Of a stretch of 45,019 bases of DNA, positions 3,238-41,138 are shown one piece after another. The translations under genes and the position numbers were made by a program. The notes below the pieces were generated by a model. That model did not search any database and was not told where the DNA came from. It worked only from the letters and a program-made list of their open reading frames with translations. Location of the stretch: contig DVMW01000032.1 in NCBI GenBank assembly GCA_018714805.1, forward strand, positions 1 through 45,019, written 5' to 3'. How positions within the stretch are numbered: position 1 is the stretch's first letter; each line of letters opens with the position of its first letter. Source of the stretch: Candidatus Fimenecus excrementigallinarum (lineage in GTDB: Bacteria; Bacillota; Clostridia; Oscillospirales; Acutalibacteraceae).

Positions 3238-4275
3238 ATGAGCAAGAGTTTTTCGGAAAGCTACAAGGCGGCCGGCGTTGACATCACCGCCGGGTACAAG
3301 GCTGTGGAGCTGATGAAGCAGCACATCGCGCGCACCGTAACGCCGGGCGCGGCGTCGGACATCGGCGGCTTCGGCGGCCTGTTTGTGCCGGACTTTGCCG
3401 GTATGCGCGAGCCGGTGCTCGTCAGCGGGACCGACGGCGTCGGGACGAAGCTGAAGATTGCCATGCTGCTGGACAAGCACGACACGATTGGCATCGACTG
3501 CGTCGCCATGTGCGTCAACGACGTCATTTGCTGCGGCGCGCAGCCGCTGTTTTTCCTGGATTACATCGCCTGCGGCAAAAACGACCCGGAAAAGATTGCC
3601 GCGATAGTCTCCGGCGTGGCGGAGGGCTGCGTGCAGGCGGGCGCCGCGCTCATCGGCGGCGAGACCGCCGAGCACCCGGGCATGATGCCCGAGGACGACT
3701 ACGACCTGGCGGGCTTTACCGTGGGCCTTGTCGACCGCAGCTGTATGTTTGACAGCAAGACGGTCCGCGCGGGCGACGCGGTGCTTGCGCTGCCGTCGTC
3801 GGGCGTCCATTCCAACGGCTTTTCGCTGGTGCGCAAGGTCTTTGACGTGGAAAACGCGGATTTGACGGTGTATTCGGACGAGCTGGGCGAAACCATCGGC
3901 GAATGCCTGCTGACCCCGACGCGCATTTACGTCAAGCCGCTGCTGGCGCTTGCAAAGGCCGTTTCCGTAAAGGCGGTTTCGCACATTACGGGCGGCGGCT
4001 TTTATGAAAACATCCCGCGCTCGCTGCCGAAGGGCCTGAGCGCCTCAGTCGACCGCAAGGCGCTTCGCATCCCGCCCATTTTCGAGCTGCTGCAAAAGAC
4101 CGGCGGCATTCCCGAACGCGATATGTTCAACACCTACAACATGGGCGTCGGCATGAGCGTGGTCGTCGCCGCCGAGCAGGCGGACGAAGCGCTGCGCGTG
4201 CTGCGCGACAACGGCGAGGCCGCTTACGCGATAGGTGAAATCGTGGAAAGCGAAGAGGGCGTGATTATCCGATGA
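3238..4275 (+). CDS. purM: Phosphoribosylformylglycinamidine cyclo-ligase (AIR synthetase)
   Basis: PurM closes the imidazole ring: FGAM plus ATP gives AIR. The 345-residue protein shows the PurM/PurL superfamily fold markers: SGTDGVGTKLKIA (ATP and substrate loop, about residues 62-74), IGIDCVAMCVNDVICCGAQPL as the conserved helix and loop, and GGETAEHPGMM near residue 140. The start at ATG 3238 has GGGAGG 10 bp upstream and gives the normal N-terminus MSKSFSESYKAAGVDI. A longer open frame reaches back to 3139, but those extra 33 residues match nothing in the family. The stop overlaps the purN start (ATGA, 4272-4275), implying translational coupling. Confidence 0.96.
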   Translation: MSKSFSESYKAAGVDITAGYKAVELMKQHIARTVTPGAASDIGGFGGLFVPDFAGMREPVLVSGTDGVGTKLKIAMLLDKHDTIGIDCVAMCVNDVICCGAQPLFFLDYIACGKNDPEKIAAIVSGVAEGCVQAGAALIGGETAEHPGMMPEDDYDLAGFTVGLVDRSCMFDSKTVRAGDAVLALPSSGVHSNGFSLVRKVFDVENADLTVYSDELGETIGECLLTPTRIYVKPLLALAKAVSVKAVSHITGGGFYENIPRSLPKGLSASVDRKALRIPPIFELLQKTGGIPERDMFNTYNMGVGMSVVVAAEQADEALRVLRDNGEAAYAIGEIVESEEGVIIR

Positions 4276-4907
4276 GCAGAAAGAACATCGTGGTGCTTGT
4301 CTCCGGCGGGGGGACGAACCTGCAGGCGCTTATCGACGCGGAGCGCCGCGGCGACATCCCGAACGGGCGCATCACCTGCGTGATTTCGTCCAGGTCCGAC
4401 GCGTACGCGCTCGAGCGCGCAAGGCAAAACGGCATCGCGACGCGCGTGCTGGAGCGCAAGCGGTATCCGGACATCGCCGCGTATTCCGCCGCGATGGTCG
4501 AGGCGCTCCAAGCGGAGCGGGCGGACCTTGTGGTATACGCCGGCTTCATGACGATTTTGGACGAGCAGGTTGTGCGCGCGTTCCCGAACTGCATGATGAA
4601 CGTCCACCCGGCGCTTATTCCGTCGTTTTGCGGGAAAGGCTACTACGGGCTGCGCGTGCATGAAGCGGTGTTGGAGCGCGGCGTCAAGCTGACGGGCGCG
4701 ACGGTGCATTTTGTTACGGAGGTCTGCGACGGCGGGCCGATTATTCTGCAAAGCGCCGTGCCGGTTCAAGACGGCGACACGCCGGAAATTTTGCAGCGCC
4801 GCGTTATGGAGCAGTGCGAATGGAAGCTGCTGCCGAAGGCCGTTGCGCTGTTTTGCGACGGCAAAATTCAGGTAAAAAACGGTCGGACCTACATACAAGA
4901 GGGCTGA
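4272..4907 (+). CDS. purN: Phosphoribosylglycinamide formyltransferase
   Basis: PurN transfers a formyl group from 10-formyltetrahydrofolate to GAR, the third step of the pathway. The 211-residue protein has the N-terminal phosphate-binding loop VSGGGTNLQAL (10-20) and the catalytic triad: Asn110 and His112 in NVHPALIPSF, and Asp153 in VCDGGPII. It starts inside the purM stop codon (ATGA overlap), so translation is probably coupled. Length is normal. The presence of PurN means formylation of GAR is folate-dependent here; no purT is seen. Confidence 0.96.
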   Translation: MSRKNIVVLVSGGGTNLQALIDAERRGDIPNGRITCVISSRSDAYALERARQNGIATRVLERKRYPDIAAYSAAMVEALQAERADLVVYAGFMTILDEQVVRAFPNCMMNVHPALIPSFCGKGYYGLRVHEAVLERGVKLTGATVHFVTEVCDGGPIILQSAVPVQDGDTPEILQRRVMEQCEWKLLPKAVALFCDGKIQVKNGRTYIQEG

Positions 4908-4943
4908 CCTGTGGAATGGAACAGGATGCAGGAGGTAATGCAT

Positions 4944-5657
4944 ATGAAAACGTTGGATTTGACGGCTTTGCTGCGGGAAAACGCATACCCGGGGCGCGGG
5001 ATTGTGCTGGGCGTGAGCCCCGACGGGCGGCACGCCGTGATTGCCTATTTTATCTTGGGGCGCAGCGTCAATTCCCGCAACCGCGTGTTTGAAGCGACGG
5101 CGGACGGCATCCGCACGAAGGCGTTCGACGAGTCGAAGCTTACCGACCCGCACCTGATTATCTATTCGCCCGTGCGCGTGCTCGGCAACAAGACCATCGT
5201 CACAAACGGCGACCAGACCGATACCATATACGAGCTGATGGACAAGCAGCAGACCTTTGAGCAGGCGCTGCGCACGCGCGAGTATGAGGACGACGCGCCG
5301 AATTACACGCCGCGCATTTCCGGCATTGTGCATCTGGAGGAGGGGCGCTGCAACTACGCGCTGTCCATCCTCAAGTCGGCGGACGGCAATCCCGACAGCG
5401 TCCGCCGCTTCACGTTCAGCTACACCCGGCCGCTTGCCGGCGAAGGCCATTTCCTGCACACCTATATGGGCGACGGGAACCCGCTGCCCTCATTCGAAGG
5501 CGAGCCGGAAAAAATCGCGACGGCAAACGACATCGACGACTTCACAGACGCGGTGTGGGACGCGCTCAACGCGGACAACAAGGTTTCGCTGTTTGTGCGC
5601 TACATTGACCTTGCCAGCGGCAAGGCCGAGGACCGCATTGTCAATAAGAACCAGTAA
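4944..5657 (+). CDS. purO: IMP cyclohydrolase, PurO-like family
   Basis: The 237-residue protein matches the archaeal-type IMP cyclohydrolase family (IMP_cyclohyd, PurO-like), which closes the second purine ring: FAICAR gives IMP. Recognisable stretches are YPGRGIVLGVSPDGRHAV near the N-terminus, YFILGRSVNSRNRVF, and a C-terminal half with NYTPRISGIVH. It sits between purN and a stand-alone AICAR transformylase, the gene for the preceding step, which supports the call. It replaces the cyclohydrolase domain of bifunctional PurH. The start is taken as ATG 4944, 8 bp after GGAGG at 4931-4935; ATG 4938 and GTG 4911 are poorer. The symbol follows the family and is not proven by activity. Confidence 0.85.
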   Translation: MKTLDLTALLRENAYPGRGIVLGVSPDGRHAVIAYFILGRSVNSRNRVFEATADGIRTKAFDESKLTDPHLIIYSPVRVLGNKTIVTNGDQTDTIYELMDKQQTFEQALRTREYEDDAPNYTPRISGIVHLEEGRCNYALSILKSADGNPDSVRRFTFSYTRPLAGEGHFLHTYMGDGNPLPSFEGEPEKIATANDIDDFTDAVWDALNADNKVSLFVRYIDLASGKAEDRIVNKNQ

Positions 5658-39105: not shown

Positions 39106-39136
39106 AACCGCCCCGTCGTCTCCCGATGGGGCGGTT
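39106..39136 (-). terminator. Terminator of the nucleotidyltransferase-HEPN gene
   Basis: AACCGCCCCGTCG (39106-39118) pairs with CGATGGGGCGGTT (39124-39136), 13 bp with one wobble and a 5-nt loop. On the minus strand TTTGCTTTTG follows, so it ends the unit beginning at 40505. Confidence 0.8.
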
Positions 39137-39154
39137 CGGCGCAGCGGACGTTTT

Positions 39155-39811
39155 TTATTTTCCCAATTTGCGCAGAAGGCTATGAAACTGCGCCAAATAC
39201 TTTTTGCATATGTCCTCAAAAATCGAGCCTGCGGTTTGCTCGTCATAAATGTGCGAGGTGAGATTGCGTGCGTCTAAAAGCTGAAGCCAAACGGTTTCGT
39301 CTGTAATCAGTCCGTCCGCATAGGCCTGCCGCATAACGGCTTTCGGACTGTTGAATTCCGTATAGCCCTGCTCGATTAGGTATTCCCGCGTTGCTTTCCA
39401 CGCAAGCTCCGTACAAAACTCGAATCGCTGGATTACGCCGTCGCGTACCGTAGATATCGGCGTTTTTCCGTAATCTTGTATGGCTTCTTCCAAGCGTTTG
39501 ACGGCTTCGGAGAACTTTCCGTACTTCTCCTCAAATTTACGCATAAGGGTCACACCATCCTTTTGAATGTTTGCAAGTAAAGCGGCGTCGGTATGCGGCG
39601 AAACAAAAACGACGTCAAAATCCAGAAGCGTTGGAAGCTGCTCAAGCGCCTCGCGAAAAAGGGGCTGCTTTTCGGTGGAAACGCCGTACACCGCGAGGTC
39701 TATGTCGCTGCGTTCACGATGGTCGCCGCGGGCTCGCGAGCCGTACAGCACAACTTTCGCCGCGCCGTATTCCCGACCGATGCTTGCGATTTTGCGAAAT
39801 AGGGCTTCCAT
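39155..39811 (-). CDS. Fused MNT nucleotidyltransferase-HEPN protein (single-chain MntA-HepT-like)
   Basis: A 218-residue protein in two parts. Residues 1-90 are a minimal nucleotidyltransferase (MNT): Gly24-Ser25 and Asp36-x-Asp38 give the exact GSx10DxD motif, with a third Asp66 in LLDFDVVFV. Residues about 95-215 are a helical HEPN/HI0074-type domain whose motif RNLTSHIY (Arg182, His187, Tyr189) fits Rx4HxY, the ribonuclease motif of HepT toxins. In known MntA-HepT pairs these are two genes, and MntA inactivates HepT by adding AMP to that Tyr. Here both halves are one chain. ATG 39811 has GGAGG 6 bp upstream. It follows an S24 repressor gene by 55 bp, probably in the same transcript. Confidence 0.85.
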   Translation of the reverse strand: MEALFRKIASIGREYGAAKVVLYGSRARGDHRERSDIDLAVYGVSTEKQPLFREALEQLPTLLDFDVVFVSPHTDAALLANIQKDGVTLMRKFEEKYGKFSEAVKRLEEAIQDYGKTPISTVRDGVIQRFEFCTELAWKATREYLIEQGYTEFNSPKAVMRQAYADGLITDETVWLQLLDARNLTSHIYDEQTAGSIFEDICKKYLAQFHSLLRKLGK

Positions 39812-39866
39812 GCCATTCCTCCATAATAAATCGTTTATTTGTTGCCGCGGGCGGTTTTATGTTTTG

Positions 39867-40505
39867 CTAAAACTTTGCCCGCAGCTCCACGACCTTGCCG
39901 AGAATCCGCACAGGAAGGCTTTCAATTTGTGCGTTTGTGAACGTAAGCACGCTATACGCGGGATTGGTCGGGATTAGGTTAATACCGCCGTCAAAGCGCT
40001 GCACTCGCTTGACCGTTGCTTCGTCACCGTTTACGAGAATAACGGCGATTTCTCCGCTTTCCACGTCGGGCTGCTTGCGGACGATAACCACGTCACCTTC
40101 ACTAATTTTCGGCTCCATGCTGTCGCCTTTGATTTGCAGTGCGAAAAACGCACCGGTCCGCGCCATTTCCTCACGGATTTCTTCGTAATCGATGATGTTT
40201 TCAACGGCGTCCATGGGAAGCCCGGCTCGGACAACGCCGAGAACGGGAATTTTAACATTTTTGCTGTAATTCTTGACTCTTGCCTTTTGGGTGTCTGCAC
40301 CCATAAGCCACACGGGGTTAATGTCAAGAACATCTGCAATCATATAGACAGTAGGGATTTTTGGAGACGAAATTCCGTTCGCGTATCGGCTTAAACTCGC
40401 CGGGCTAACACGCACCTTTTTTGCAAGTTCTCGGATACTGTACCCGCTTTCAGATATAGCTTGTGTTAATTTCTCTGGGAATTTTGAAACGTTTATCTCT
40501 AACAT
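39867..40505 (-). CDS. XRE-family S24 (LexA/CI-type) self-cleaving repressor
   Basis: A 212-residue phage-type repressor. The N-terminal helix-turn-helix is at about 21-45 (YSIRELAKKVRVSPASLSRYANG). The C-terminal S24 domain carries the Ala94-Gly95 cleavage site in VVRAGLP, the nucleophile Ser129 in KGDSMEP and the general base Lys166 in ATVKRV, so RecA-stimulated self-cleavage is plausible. It resembles CI-like repressors of temperate phages and integrative elements. It is transcribed from an AT-rich region with inverted repeats, opposite a decayed cro-like gene, and is followed at 55 bp by the MNT-HEPN fusion. ATG 40505 has only a modest GGTGAG upstream. Confidence 0.92.
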   Translation of the reverse strand: MLEINVSKFPEKLTQAISESGYSIRELAKKVRVSPASLSRYANGISSPKIPTVYMIADVLDINPVWLMGADTQKARVKNYSKNVKIPVLGVVRAGLPMDAVENIIDYEEIREEMARTGAFFALQIKGDSMEPKISEGDVVIVRKQPDVESGEIAVILVNGDEATVKRVQRFDGGINLIPTNPAYSVLTFTNAQIESLPVRILGKVVELRAKF

Positions 40506-40520
40506 AATCTCACCGAAAAA

Positions 40521-40549
40521 AATATATCACATAAAATTTCAAATTGCAA
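40521..40549 (-). promoter_or_regulatory. Promoter of the S24 repressor
   Basis: On the minus strand, TTGCAA (40549-40544), a 17-bp spacer and TATATT (40526-40521). Confidence 0.75.
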
Positions 40550-40566
40550 CAGAACTGGAATAAAAT

Positions 40567-40601
40567 CTGTTTTTTTGTTTCAAAAATGGTTGAAAAAACA
40601 G
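40567..40601. repeat. Inverted repeat in the repressor control region
   Basis: CTGTTTTTT (40567-40575) is repeated in inverted form as AAAAAACAG (40593-40601). It lies between the repressor promoter and the cro-like remnant and may be an operator. Confidence 0.45.
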
Positions 40602-40658
40602 TTTGCCCGCGGTGTAGCAGCGTTGCAATATGAAACGAACGAGGCGATAAAAAATACA

Positions 40659-40677
40659 TTGAGCTGATATAGCTCAA
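40659..40677. repeat. Palindrome TTGAGCT-GATAT-AGCTCAA
   Basis: Perfect 7-bp arms (40659-40665 and 40671-40677) flank 5 bp. It stands just before the cro-like remnant, a typical place for a phage repressor operator. Confidence 0.45.
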
Positions 40678-40882
40678 AGGTAGAATCGTAGAGCTCGGGG
40701 AGAACTACAAGAGCGTAAGCAAGAAAATGGGAATCAGCACAACATCCTTTGACAGCAAGATAAATGGCGAAATTGTTGCGCTTGAAATCGAGCTCCCCAC
40801 GCGTAACCTTATTAACAAAGTCCACGGATTTTTCTGGGGGCTTTTTTATACACTCTCGTGTATATACAGAGTTTCTGCATAA
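40673..40882 (+). pseudogene. Remnant of a phage cro-like (DUF739-like) regulator
   Basis: The open frame has no start codon at its proper place; it opens after a TAG at 40670-40672. It encodes LKGRIVELGENYKSVSKKMG followed by ISTTSFDSKING, which has the form of the helix-turn-helix of small phage Cro-like regulators. Homology seems to end after KINGE; the rest, to the TAA at 40880-40882, is unlike the expected C-terminal half, as if a deletion had joined it to other DNA. It points away from the S24 repressor, as cro does from cI. The family link is from memory of the motif and is tentative. The remaining gap to 41064 shows a tandem GACTTGCATTT pair (40909-40930) and a terminator, and no other gene. 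Confidence 0.45.
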
Positions 40883-40999
40883 GGAAGCGCTCGGCAAACA
40901 AATGTTCTGACTTGCATTTGACTTGCATTTTTTCGGAAATGCGCGGAAAAACGCGGAAATTTTAGGACGCTGCGTTGCGAAAAAAGCAAACAAAAAAGT

Positions 41000-41039
41000 C
41001 CCGCAATCCCTTGTAAATCAAGGAGTTGCGGGCTTTTTT
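41000..41039. terminator. Strong bidirectional terminator beside tRNA-Gly
   Basis: CCCGCAA (41000-41006) pairs with TTGCGGG (41026-41032), with an inner CCTTG/CAAGG stem (41009-41013 with 41019-41023). CTTTTTT follows on the plus strand and ACTTTTTT on the minus strand. It ends the tRNA transcript and closes the phage-like segment. Confidence 0.88.
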
Positions 41040-41064
41040 CGATTGACCATTAAAAAGGTCGCTT

Positions 41065-41138
41065 TGGAGCGGCTGATGGGAGTCGAACCCACCTGTCAAG
41101 CTTGGGAAGCTTGCATTCTACCGATGAACTACAGCCGC
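41065..41138 (-). tRNA. tRNA-Gly (anticodon CCC)
   Basis: The 74-nt minus-strand gene has acceptor arms GCGGCTG and CAGCCGC, anticodon loop TTCCCAA between CAAGC and GCTTG (anticodon CCC), T-loop TTCGACT, U73 as in bacterial glycine tRNAs, and an encoded CCA. It is second in a two-tRNA transcript after tRNA-Pro. Its 3' end is the right boundary of the phage-like segment. Confidence 0.95.

Follow-up and report, generated by a model that had tools for sequence, protein, structure and literature searches.

The window analysed here, a stretch of 45,019 nucleotides from Candidatus Fimenecus excrementigallinarum (GCA_018714805.1, contig DVMW01000032.1), contains a gene in which an MNT nucleotidyltransferase and a HEPN domain, elsewhere an antitoxin and its toxin, are encoded in one open frame. 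The question raised by this locus is how a toxin and an antitoxin can operate when both are parts of the same polypeptide, and whether that polypeptide is all that the gene makes. In this regard, the characterised relatives are described as RNases silenced by AMP chains, which the MNT partner adds to the tyrosine of an RX4HXY motif (PMC7641770, PMC11586414). The account favoured here, with a confidence clearly but not greatly above even, is that the locus is a type VII-like HEPN-MNT toxin–antitoxin of the HI0073/HI0074 branch, in which one gene makes both the fusion and a free HEPN from an internal start.

The gene and its first half are located as follows:

39155..39811, minus strand: fused MNT-HEPN gene, a single open frame of 218 aa, stop included in the coordinates
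39542..39811, minus strand: MNT nucleotidyltransferase half, residues 1-90 (domain boundary ~91), with PF18765 at 7-92 and PF01909 at 13-63

The gene runs from an ATG at 39811 through 218 codons to a stop that ends at 39155, and has its own ribosome-binding site, GGAGG, at 39818-39822. Its N-terminal half matches the Pfam families Polbeta (PF18765, E 1.1e-13) and NTP_transf_2 (PF01909, E 3.3e-10), both above their cut-offs, and residues 96-216, spanning 39164-39526, match NTase_sub_bind (PF08780, E 1.2e-36, likewise above the Pfam cut-off); such E values are far beyond chance and exclude chance motif matches. The NCBIfam subfamily HI0074 (TIGR01987) is matched at 104.4 bits, over a cut-off of 55.8. 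In an AlphaFold2 model built from 49 fused proteins (mean pLDDT 93.2, pTM 0.77), the last MNT strand (87-91) passes directly into HEPN helix 1 (92-116), with no linker. From sequence and model alike, therefore, the 218-residue protein is predicted to be an MNT nucleotidyltransferase joined without a linker to a HI0074-type HEPN domain (96-216). The open frame reported in the first-pass annotation is real, its strand, which was left unnamed there, being the minus; and the domain search and structure prediction which that annotation called for find a HEPN in the C-terminal half rather than an unrelated fold.

A single-protein query for related loci confirmed no relative, and an alignment query was used next. 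Over 84,980 species genomes, in a scan by two short peptide patterns that was not exhaustive, this gave at least 94 relatives, of which 80 were kept. Relatives also came from plasmids (65 records) and phage records (four), and viral contigs held five, four of them fused and two of those identical. Within the family of the window organism 27 of 300 genomes matched at E 0.001, and a full-length fusion is present in four of these (the window's included); within its order 21 of 394 matched at E 1e-10; the organism's own genome has no second relative of the fused protein at E 0.001. A script run over 145 loci, with at most two HEPN matches from each, returned 81 fused, 39 two-gene and seven HEPN-only rows, from which deduplication left 68 distinct fused proteins (the window's included) and 31 distinct two-gene pairs. 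An assembly or frameshift artefact was rejected, since single open frames are present in several isolate genomes (Massiliimalia, Neobittarella, Acetobacterium wieringae, Propionispira, Flavonifractor, Anaerofilum and Agathobaculum) besides many MAGs. As a separate matter, one genome (G488) carries two near-identical fused genes (L043 and L053), each starting at the very end of its contig, such that a repeat which breaks the assembly may carry the module.

The relation between the two forms is apparent from the gene pairs, where the last part of the MNT gene contains the HEPN start codon in a different frame. Of the 31 pairs 29 overlap, and in 28 of these the HEPN start stands in the +1 relation to the MNT frame. 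Typically, the MNT gene reads ...Leu-Tyr-Glu across ..TTTATGA.. and the HEPN gene begins at the ATG one base further on; for two pairs (L121 and L133) the start chosen by the script was a non-ATG codon. Around the junction the fused genes match the overlap of the pairs, except that the frames are merged and that Met90 stands where the pairs have the HEPN start. When the window, AAGGATGGTGTGACCCTTATG, is set against the pair L122, AAGGATGGTGTGACACTTTATG, it has one T fewer, which brings the old HEPN start into frame as codon 90. Two other two-gene loci of the same families, L197 and L199, have the HEPN gene upstream of the MNT gene, the reverse of the usual order.

The old start codon lies within the fused gene together with the following features:

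39542..39544, minus strand: ATG codon 90, the proposed internal translation start, equivalent to the codon at which HEPN begins in two-gene pairs
39553..39562, minus strand: internal Shine-Dalgarno-like stretch AAGGATGGTG, 8 nt before codon 90, from the anti-Shine-Dalgarno duplex and synonymous-codon tests
39155..39544, minus strand: proposed internal product, a putative free HEPN toxin of 129 aa

Codon 90 is methionine in 63 of the 68 fused proteins, and in all 42 of a clade that has no two-gene member. The exceptions are L040 with CTG (its genome, G538, carries this fused module and also a two-gene relative, L054), L118 with TTG, L114 with a tyrosine followed at once by an in-frame ATG, and two distant fusions, L032 and L035, with phenylalanine. 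Met90 is within the predicted beta strand 87-91, and its conservation may therefore be partly structural; eight of the 65 hydrophobic-majority columns are more conserved.

As for the ribosome-binding site, the anti-Shine-Dalgarno duplex in the window amounts to −11.7 kcal/mol before codon 90, compared with −9.3 at the gene's own start. Across the fused genes the mean before codon 90 is −8.94 kcal/mol (n=66), as against −8.68 at the genes' own ATG starts (n=48), the internal site pairing at least as well as the own start in 23 of 48; the average for 726 other ATGs of these genes is −2.13 kcal/mol. Sequences of Shine-Dalgarno type may serve other purposes when they lie within genes. The pairing of the anti-Shine-Dalgarno sequence with bases −20 to −5 was scored against synonymous shuffles that keep local codon usage. 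Before codon 90 of the fused genes the mean z is −0.93 (n=68), with −0.02 at 1837 other positions, and at the HEPN starts of the two-gene pairs it is −0.89 (n=27 of 31, two pairs being short of codon data and two non-overlapping). A built-in control is provided by RDGV at residues 123-126, which has nearly the same residues at the same spacing. With L032 and L035 left out from this point on, z is −0.98 at codon 90 and 0.00 at the control (n=66); after thinning to below 60% identity the values are −0.92 and 0.04 (n=25), and below 55% they are −0.79 and 0.08 (n=14). Indeed, GGC is used for Gly86 in five cases where 25.2 are expected, whereas the control Gly125 has 26 against the same 25.2.

The silent sites are most constrained in the all-fused clade (42 rows, no two-gene member, mean identity 0.56, minimum 0.45), in which z is −1.29, or −1.27 below 60% identity (n=14); thinned to below 55% (n=6) it is −1.03, but there the control itself departs in the opposite direction, at +0.33 (t 3.65; this and the t values that follow are not probabilities, as the clades were named after the tree had been seen and the rows are related). 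The fused rows outside this clade have a weaker signal (z −0.39, n=24). Around codon 90 the RNA is also less structured than its synonymous shuffles (z +0.70, t 5.45, n=44), with 11 other positions ranging from −0.36 to +0.22. In other words, the fused gene has the attributes of a gene within a gene, namely a conserved in-frame start codon with a ribosome-binding site, and constraint on the silent sites. The retention of the old HEPN start codon and ribosome-binding site suggests that the internal start probably yields the toxin half alone, as a free HEPN, besides the fusion.

A second and longer fused form bears on the same point. When 398 genomes of the phylum were surveyed with Pfam, 130 PF08780 rows were over the cut-off and seven of these had an open frame of at least 200 aa, which, checked singly, were five fusions (the window gene, L198, L200, L201 and L202) and two HEPN-first pairs. 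One order is rich in the longer form (67 of 189 genomes matched at E 1e-15); 30 loci from that order and five others, less two partial ones, make a set of 33 distinct loci, of which L035 is also among the 68. Of the 33, 32 have GSx10DxD and 31 have Rx4HxY. At the junction 28 have ATG, two GTG, and one each TTG, ATT and ACG (start-type in 31 of 33); among the exceptions, L033 is without a start codon and L232, with ATT, has an ATG one codon earlier. That ATG, GTG and TTG replace one another in a single column suggests that the start codon, rather than the residue, is selected, although codon interchange alone is no proof, two other columns being richer in start-type codons (33 and 32 of 33, compared with 31). 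The linker residues of this form vary while the pairing stays, with z at −0.89 (n=33), or −0.92 below 60% identity (n=12), and −0.02 at other positions, codon usage being pooled for loci with little coding sequence; RNA structure at the junction gives z +0.49 (t 2.82, n=22) against 0.06. In a tree built on 54 selected rows (28 pairs, with the two forms represented by 14 and 12 rows, and excluding L032 and three long-branched pairs), the second form comes out as a clade (100/100) and the first is not one clade. A single clade of all fused rows is rejected (p-AU 0.0006, for a group named after the first tree).

It could be argued that the locus nevertheless encodes a true single-chain, self-modifying protein, in which the fusion is the only product, Tyr189 is AMPylated in cis or between protomers, and Met90 and the codons upstream of it are structural. 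The single open frame and the conservation of both active sites (see below) would sit well with such a protein, as would a Met90 that belongs to a predicted strand and is followed directly by HEPN helix 1. We regard it as somewhat unlikely, however, because the synonymous-codon bias before codon 90 is absent at the RDGV control, the RNA structure at codon 90 is weaker, and GTG and TTG replace ATG in the second lineage, all of which indicate constraint on the RNA and the start codon and not on the residues. Of the ‘single-chain’ protein described in the first-pass annotation, then, the one open frame stands, and the description is probably incomplete, an old HEPN start and its ribosome-binding site being kept inside the gene. 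The same applies to the statement that such a fusion could not use the logic of antitoxin loss, which would leave out a free HEPN toxin that is probably made too.

The catalytic residues of the two halves are found at these positions:

39698..39742, minus strand: GSx10DxD motif, residues 24-38, each residue kept in 67-68 of 68
39614..39616, minus strand: Asp66, third carboxylate of the nucleotidyltransferase site, kept in 67 of 68
39419..39430, minus strand: QRFE, residues 128-131, of which Q128 and E131 are proposed HEPN metal-site residues by alignment with 8xdj
39245..39268, minus strand: Rx4HxY motif, residues 182-189, kept in 66-67 of 68

Among the 68 distinct fused proteins, D36 and D38 are kept in all, G24, S25, R182 and Y189 in 67 each, and H187 in 66. 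Three further residues, absent from the first-pass annotation, are conserved to the same degree: D66 (67 of 68), which may be the counterpart of D71 in MntA (PMC7641770), and Q128 (67 of 68) and E131 (66 of 68), which align with Q44 and E47 of the Legionella pneumophila HEPN toxin, reported to be metal-site residues (PMC11586414). The exceptions are L118 (truncated start, R182W), L082 (H187R, Y189C), L044 (H187Y) and L114 (D66N). Gly24, Ser25, Asp36, Asp38, Arg182, His187 and Tyr189 are thus at the residue numbers first assigned to them, and the claim of two intact active sites in one polypeptide holds across the fused proteins, each catalytic residue being present in 66-68 of 68; the survey of homologues, moreover, finds the fusion recurring with both motifs co-conserved, rather than any general loss of Arg182, His187 or Tyr189.

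This conservation weighs on another possible reading, a domesticated nucleotidyltransferase whose HEPN now serves to bind the substrate, in the manner of antibiotic-modifying or signalling NTases. ‘Substrate binding’ is indeed what the Pfam and NCBIfam names say, and HEPN domains fused to MNT in multidomain proteins are described as typically without RNase residues (PMC3710099). Here, however, the RNase residues R182, H187, Q128 and E131 are kept in the numbers given above, and the AAD(9), ANT and HalB chains align over both halves only at rmsd 15-17 Å (Foldseek), which implies a different domain arrangement; on these grounds an antibiotic-type domestication was rejected as very improbable.

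With regard to known systems, the nearest characterised toxin to the HEPN half is that of the L. pneumophila HEPN-MNT system (8XDJ, 8XEH, 8XEO; PMC11586414) at phmmer E 7.7e-18, only the uncharacterised TTHA0048 scoring above it. The same system is the best Foldseek match to both halves, its toxin being among 8yuf, 8xdj and 8xeh at TMt 0.88-0.91 for the HEPN half, and its MNT antitoxin (8xeo, 8xeh_E) at 0.77-0.80 for the MNT half, where HI0073 is at 0.72-0.75. By sequence the MNT half matches solved MNTs weakly (9z7q, E 0.0034 over residues 8-89; 8xeh_E, E 0.0061); 9z7q, the best PDB match, is a chain named Cmr1-MntA, that is, an MNT joined to a CRISPR-type name. The L. pneumophila system and the fusion have in common RX4HXY with the counterparts of Q44/E47 and an MNT without helix alpha-4, and differ in that the former consists of two separate proteins, at 1 MNT to 4 HEPN, and the latter of one chain and a proposed internal HEPN. 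Haemophilus HI0073/HI0074 and Thermus TTHA0048 (1no5, 1jog, 1wty) give both halves their family names (TIGR01987, PF08780) and match in sequence and fold, the first as two proteins and the second as a lone HEPN half, in contrast to the fusion of the window. Taken together, sequence and predicted fold place the fusion in the HI0073/HI0074 branch, with L. pneumophila HEPN-MNT as its nearest characterised system.

Shewanella oneidensis MntA-HepT (type VII, Class I; PMC7641770) resembles the fusion in its GSx10DxD and RX4HXY motifs and in having the MNT gene first, and differs in its two genes, in a HepT of PF01934 and in a (HepT)6-(MntA)2 complex. As described in that paper, pairs of PF08780 and PF01909 are counted within Class I. 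An MNT with GSx10DxD and a HEPN of PF01934 or PF08780 with RX4HXY, which are among the criteria of the class, as are separate genes, are both present here in the MNT-first order, but in one frame, in the window as in the 68 fused proteins, and the fused gene is for this reason called a variant, probably working like type VII, and not a plain member. Against the NCBIfam equivalog for the MntA antitoxin (NF047752) the protein scores 43.8 bits, below the cut-off of 60, and 49 of 49 fused proteins match this model at E 0.001, a mark distinct from the 60-bit cut-off. Hailong HalB (NF051895) was rejected, at 30 bits over residues 21-39 only and with a cut-off of 190; PADLOC gives weak to moderate matches of the MNT half to the candidate-defence models PDC-S09 and PDC-M05A. 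In its proposed genetics the locus is like the Rpn genes-within-genes toxin–antitoxins (PMC10327210), in which one gene has a second product from an internal start; what starts internally in the Rpn genes, however, is the antitoxin, whereas the fused gene would yield its toxin in this way, and the two belong to unrelated families.

Well-supported branches of a 99-row tree carry at least five changes of the fused state (six changes in all), and fusion or re-splitting has therefore happened more than once. That the start-site signals are left over from recent or repeated fusion of pairs (or re-splitting), unselected in the fused state, would agree with these changes and with the sufficiency of a one-base indel for a window-type fusion, yet it is the least probable of the readings, a slender chance at best, since the signals are strongest in the 42-row all-fused clade, where at a mean identity of 0.56 silent sites should drift.

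For the favoured reading, one gene with two products, we infer a toxic HEPN, its AMPylation by the MNT, use of the internal start and a trigger of release. The full-length product would be MNT joined directly to HEPN, and ribosomes starting at codon 90 would give the free HEPN of 129 aa; within mixed oligomers, the MNT would AMPylate the Tyr189 side chain on its own and on free HEPN subunits, and the RNase of the AMPylated HEPN would be held silent. Release might follow from a low ATP supply, from an AMP-removing enzyme or from internal initiation rising over full-length, and the system could have a role in competition between prophages or islands. Both products are proposed because HEPN exceeds MNT in the known complexes, 4:1 and 6:2 (PMC11586414, PMC7641770; both two-gene systems), and such 1:4 or 2:6 ratios of MNT to HEPN are unattainable by a 1:1 fusion alone. 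By a slight balance of probability, a nested, AMPylation-controlled toxin–antitoxin of this kind, with a self-silencing fusion and a free toxin, has evolved two or more times, in the window's lineage through an indel of one base that brought the pair's overlapping start into frame, and was kept as the active complex needs more HEPN than MNT.

Fused MNT-HEPN architectures, which the first-pass annotation supposed might already exist in databases, were in print in 2009 and 2013, as a HEPN-MNT fusion on pAgK84 (PMC2701414) and as HEPN-M ‘occasionally fused to MNT’ (PMC3710099, Table 1), and the fusion alone is therefore not new. In the passages returned by literature searches on fused HEPN-MNT and an internal start, the fusion is mentioned and an internal start in it was not found. 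If the reading is right, the antitoxin could not be lost without the toxin, yet extra toxin would come from within the same gene, and the merger of frames by one base would be a clear route from an overlapping gene pair to a nested gene. Whether AMPylation occurs in cis or in trans, and why HEPN is in excess in the known HEPN-MNT complexes, can now be put to the test. The kept RNase residues also run counter to the generalisation in PMC3710099 on HEPN fused to MNT, and the internal start suggests that gene catalogues hide a second product in fused MNT-HEPN genes.

The genomic setting of the window gene comprises the following:

39137..41061, no strand: insertion of ~1.9 kb with the repressor and fused genes, bounded on one side by the tRNA-Gly 3' end
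39867..40505, minus strand: HTH and peptidase S24 (CI/LexA-like) repressor gene (PF00717, E 4.8e-30; PF01381, E 5.6e-12)
41065..41138, minus strand: tRNA-Gly (ccc), at the edge of the insertion

The repressor gene is 55 bp upstream of the fused gene, on the same strand. In three congeners (L162-L164) neither repressor nor fusion lies between the left neighbour and the tRNA-Gly/tRNA-Pro pair, both of which they share with the window. The match of a fourth (L165) to the window ends at 39118/39136, and seven other genomes of the genus, among those listed in the family and order searches, had no match at E 0.001 and E 1e-10. A search of the window for a repeat of the tRNA-Gly 3' end that could serve as attachment site found none at up to 6 mismatches in 23. 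One congener (L163, genome G619, at 3583-3605 and 3712-3734) has this end duplicated perfectly over 23 bp, ~107 bp from the end of the tRNA gene, and the duplicate resembles an attachment-site remnant. Another (L164, genome G663, 3245-5165) has a different 1.9-kb stretch with a 236-codon frame at the same tRNA-Gly, which gives the site the look of an insertion hot spot. In the window, the part of the insertion that separates the repressor gene from tRNA-Gly also has a doubtful minus-strand frame of 137 codons (40580-40993).

Of the nearest neighbours within 500 bp of fused genes, 43 of the 61 upstream and 50 of the 64 downstream were taken, those left out being mostly short and near-duplicate genes, with a few others. 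Upstream, HTH_3 is found in nine of the 43 and S24 in four; downstream, Phage_integrase in seven of the 50 and Resolvase in two. A rougher clustering within 5.5 kb, in which many loci are cut by contig ends, has an integrase cluster at 11 of 68 loci and the repressor's cluster at 10. Such neighbours indicate that the system sometimes rides in lysogeny or integration modules, and the setting is consistent with prophage or island maintenance or defence. On the Ilyobacter polytropus plasmid pILYOP02 (L033, 2986-4546), a fused MNT-HEPN gene, annotated only as an HI0074 subunit, adjoins a LexA-family regulator amid conjugation genes, in an arrangement that resembles the S24 neighbour in the window.
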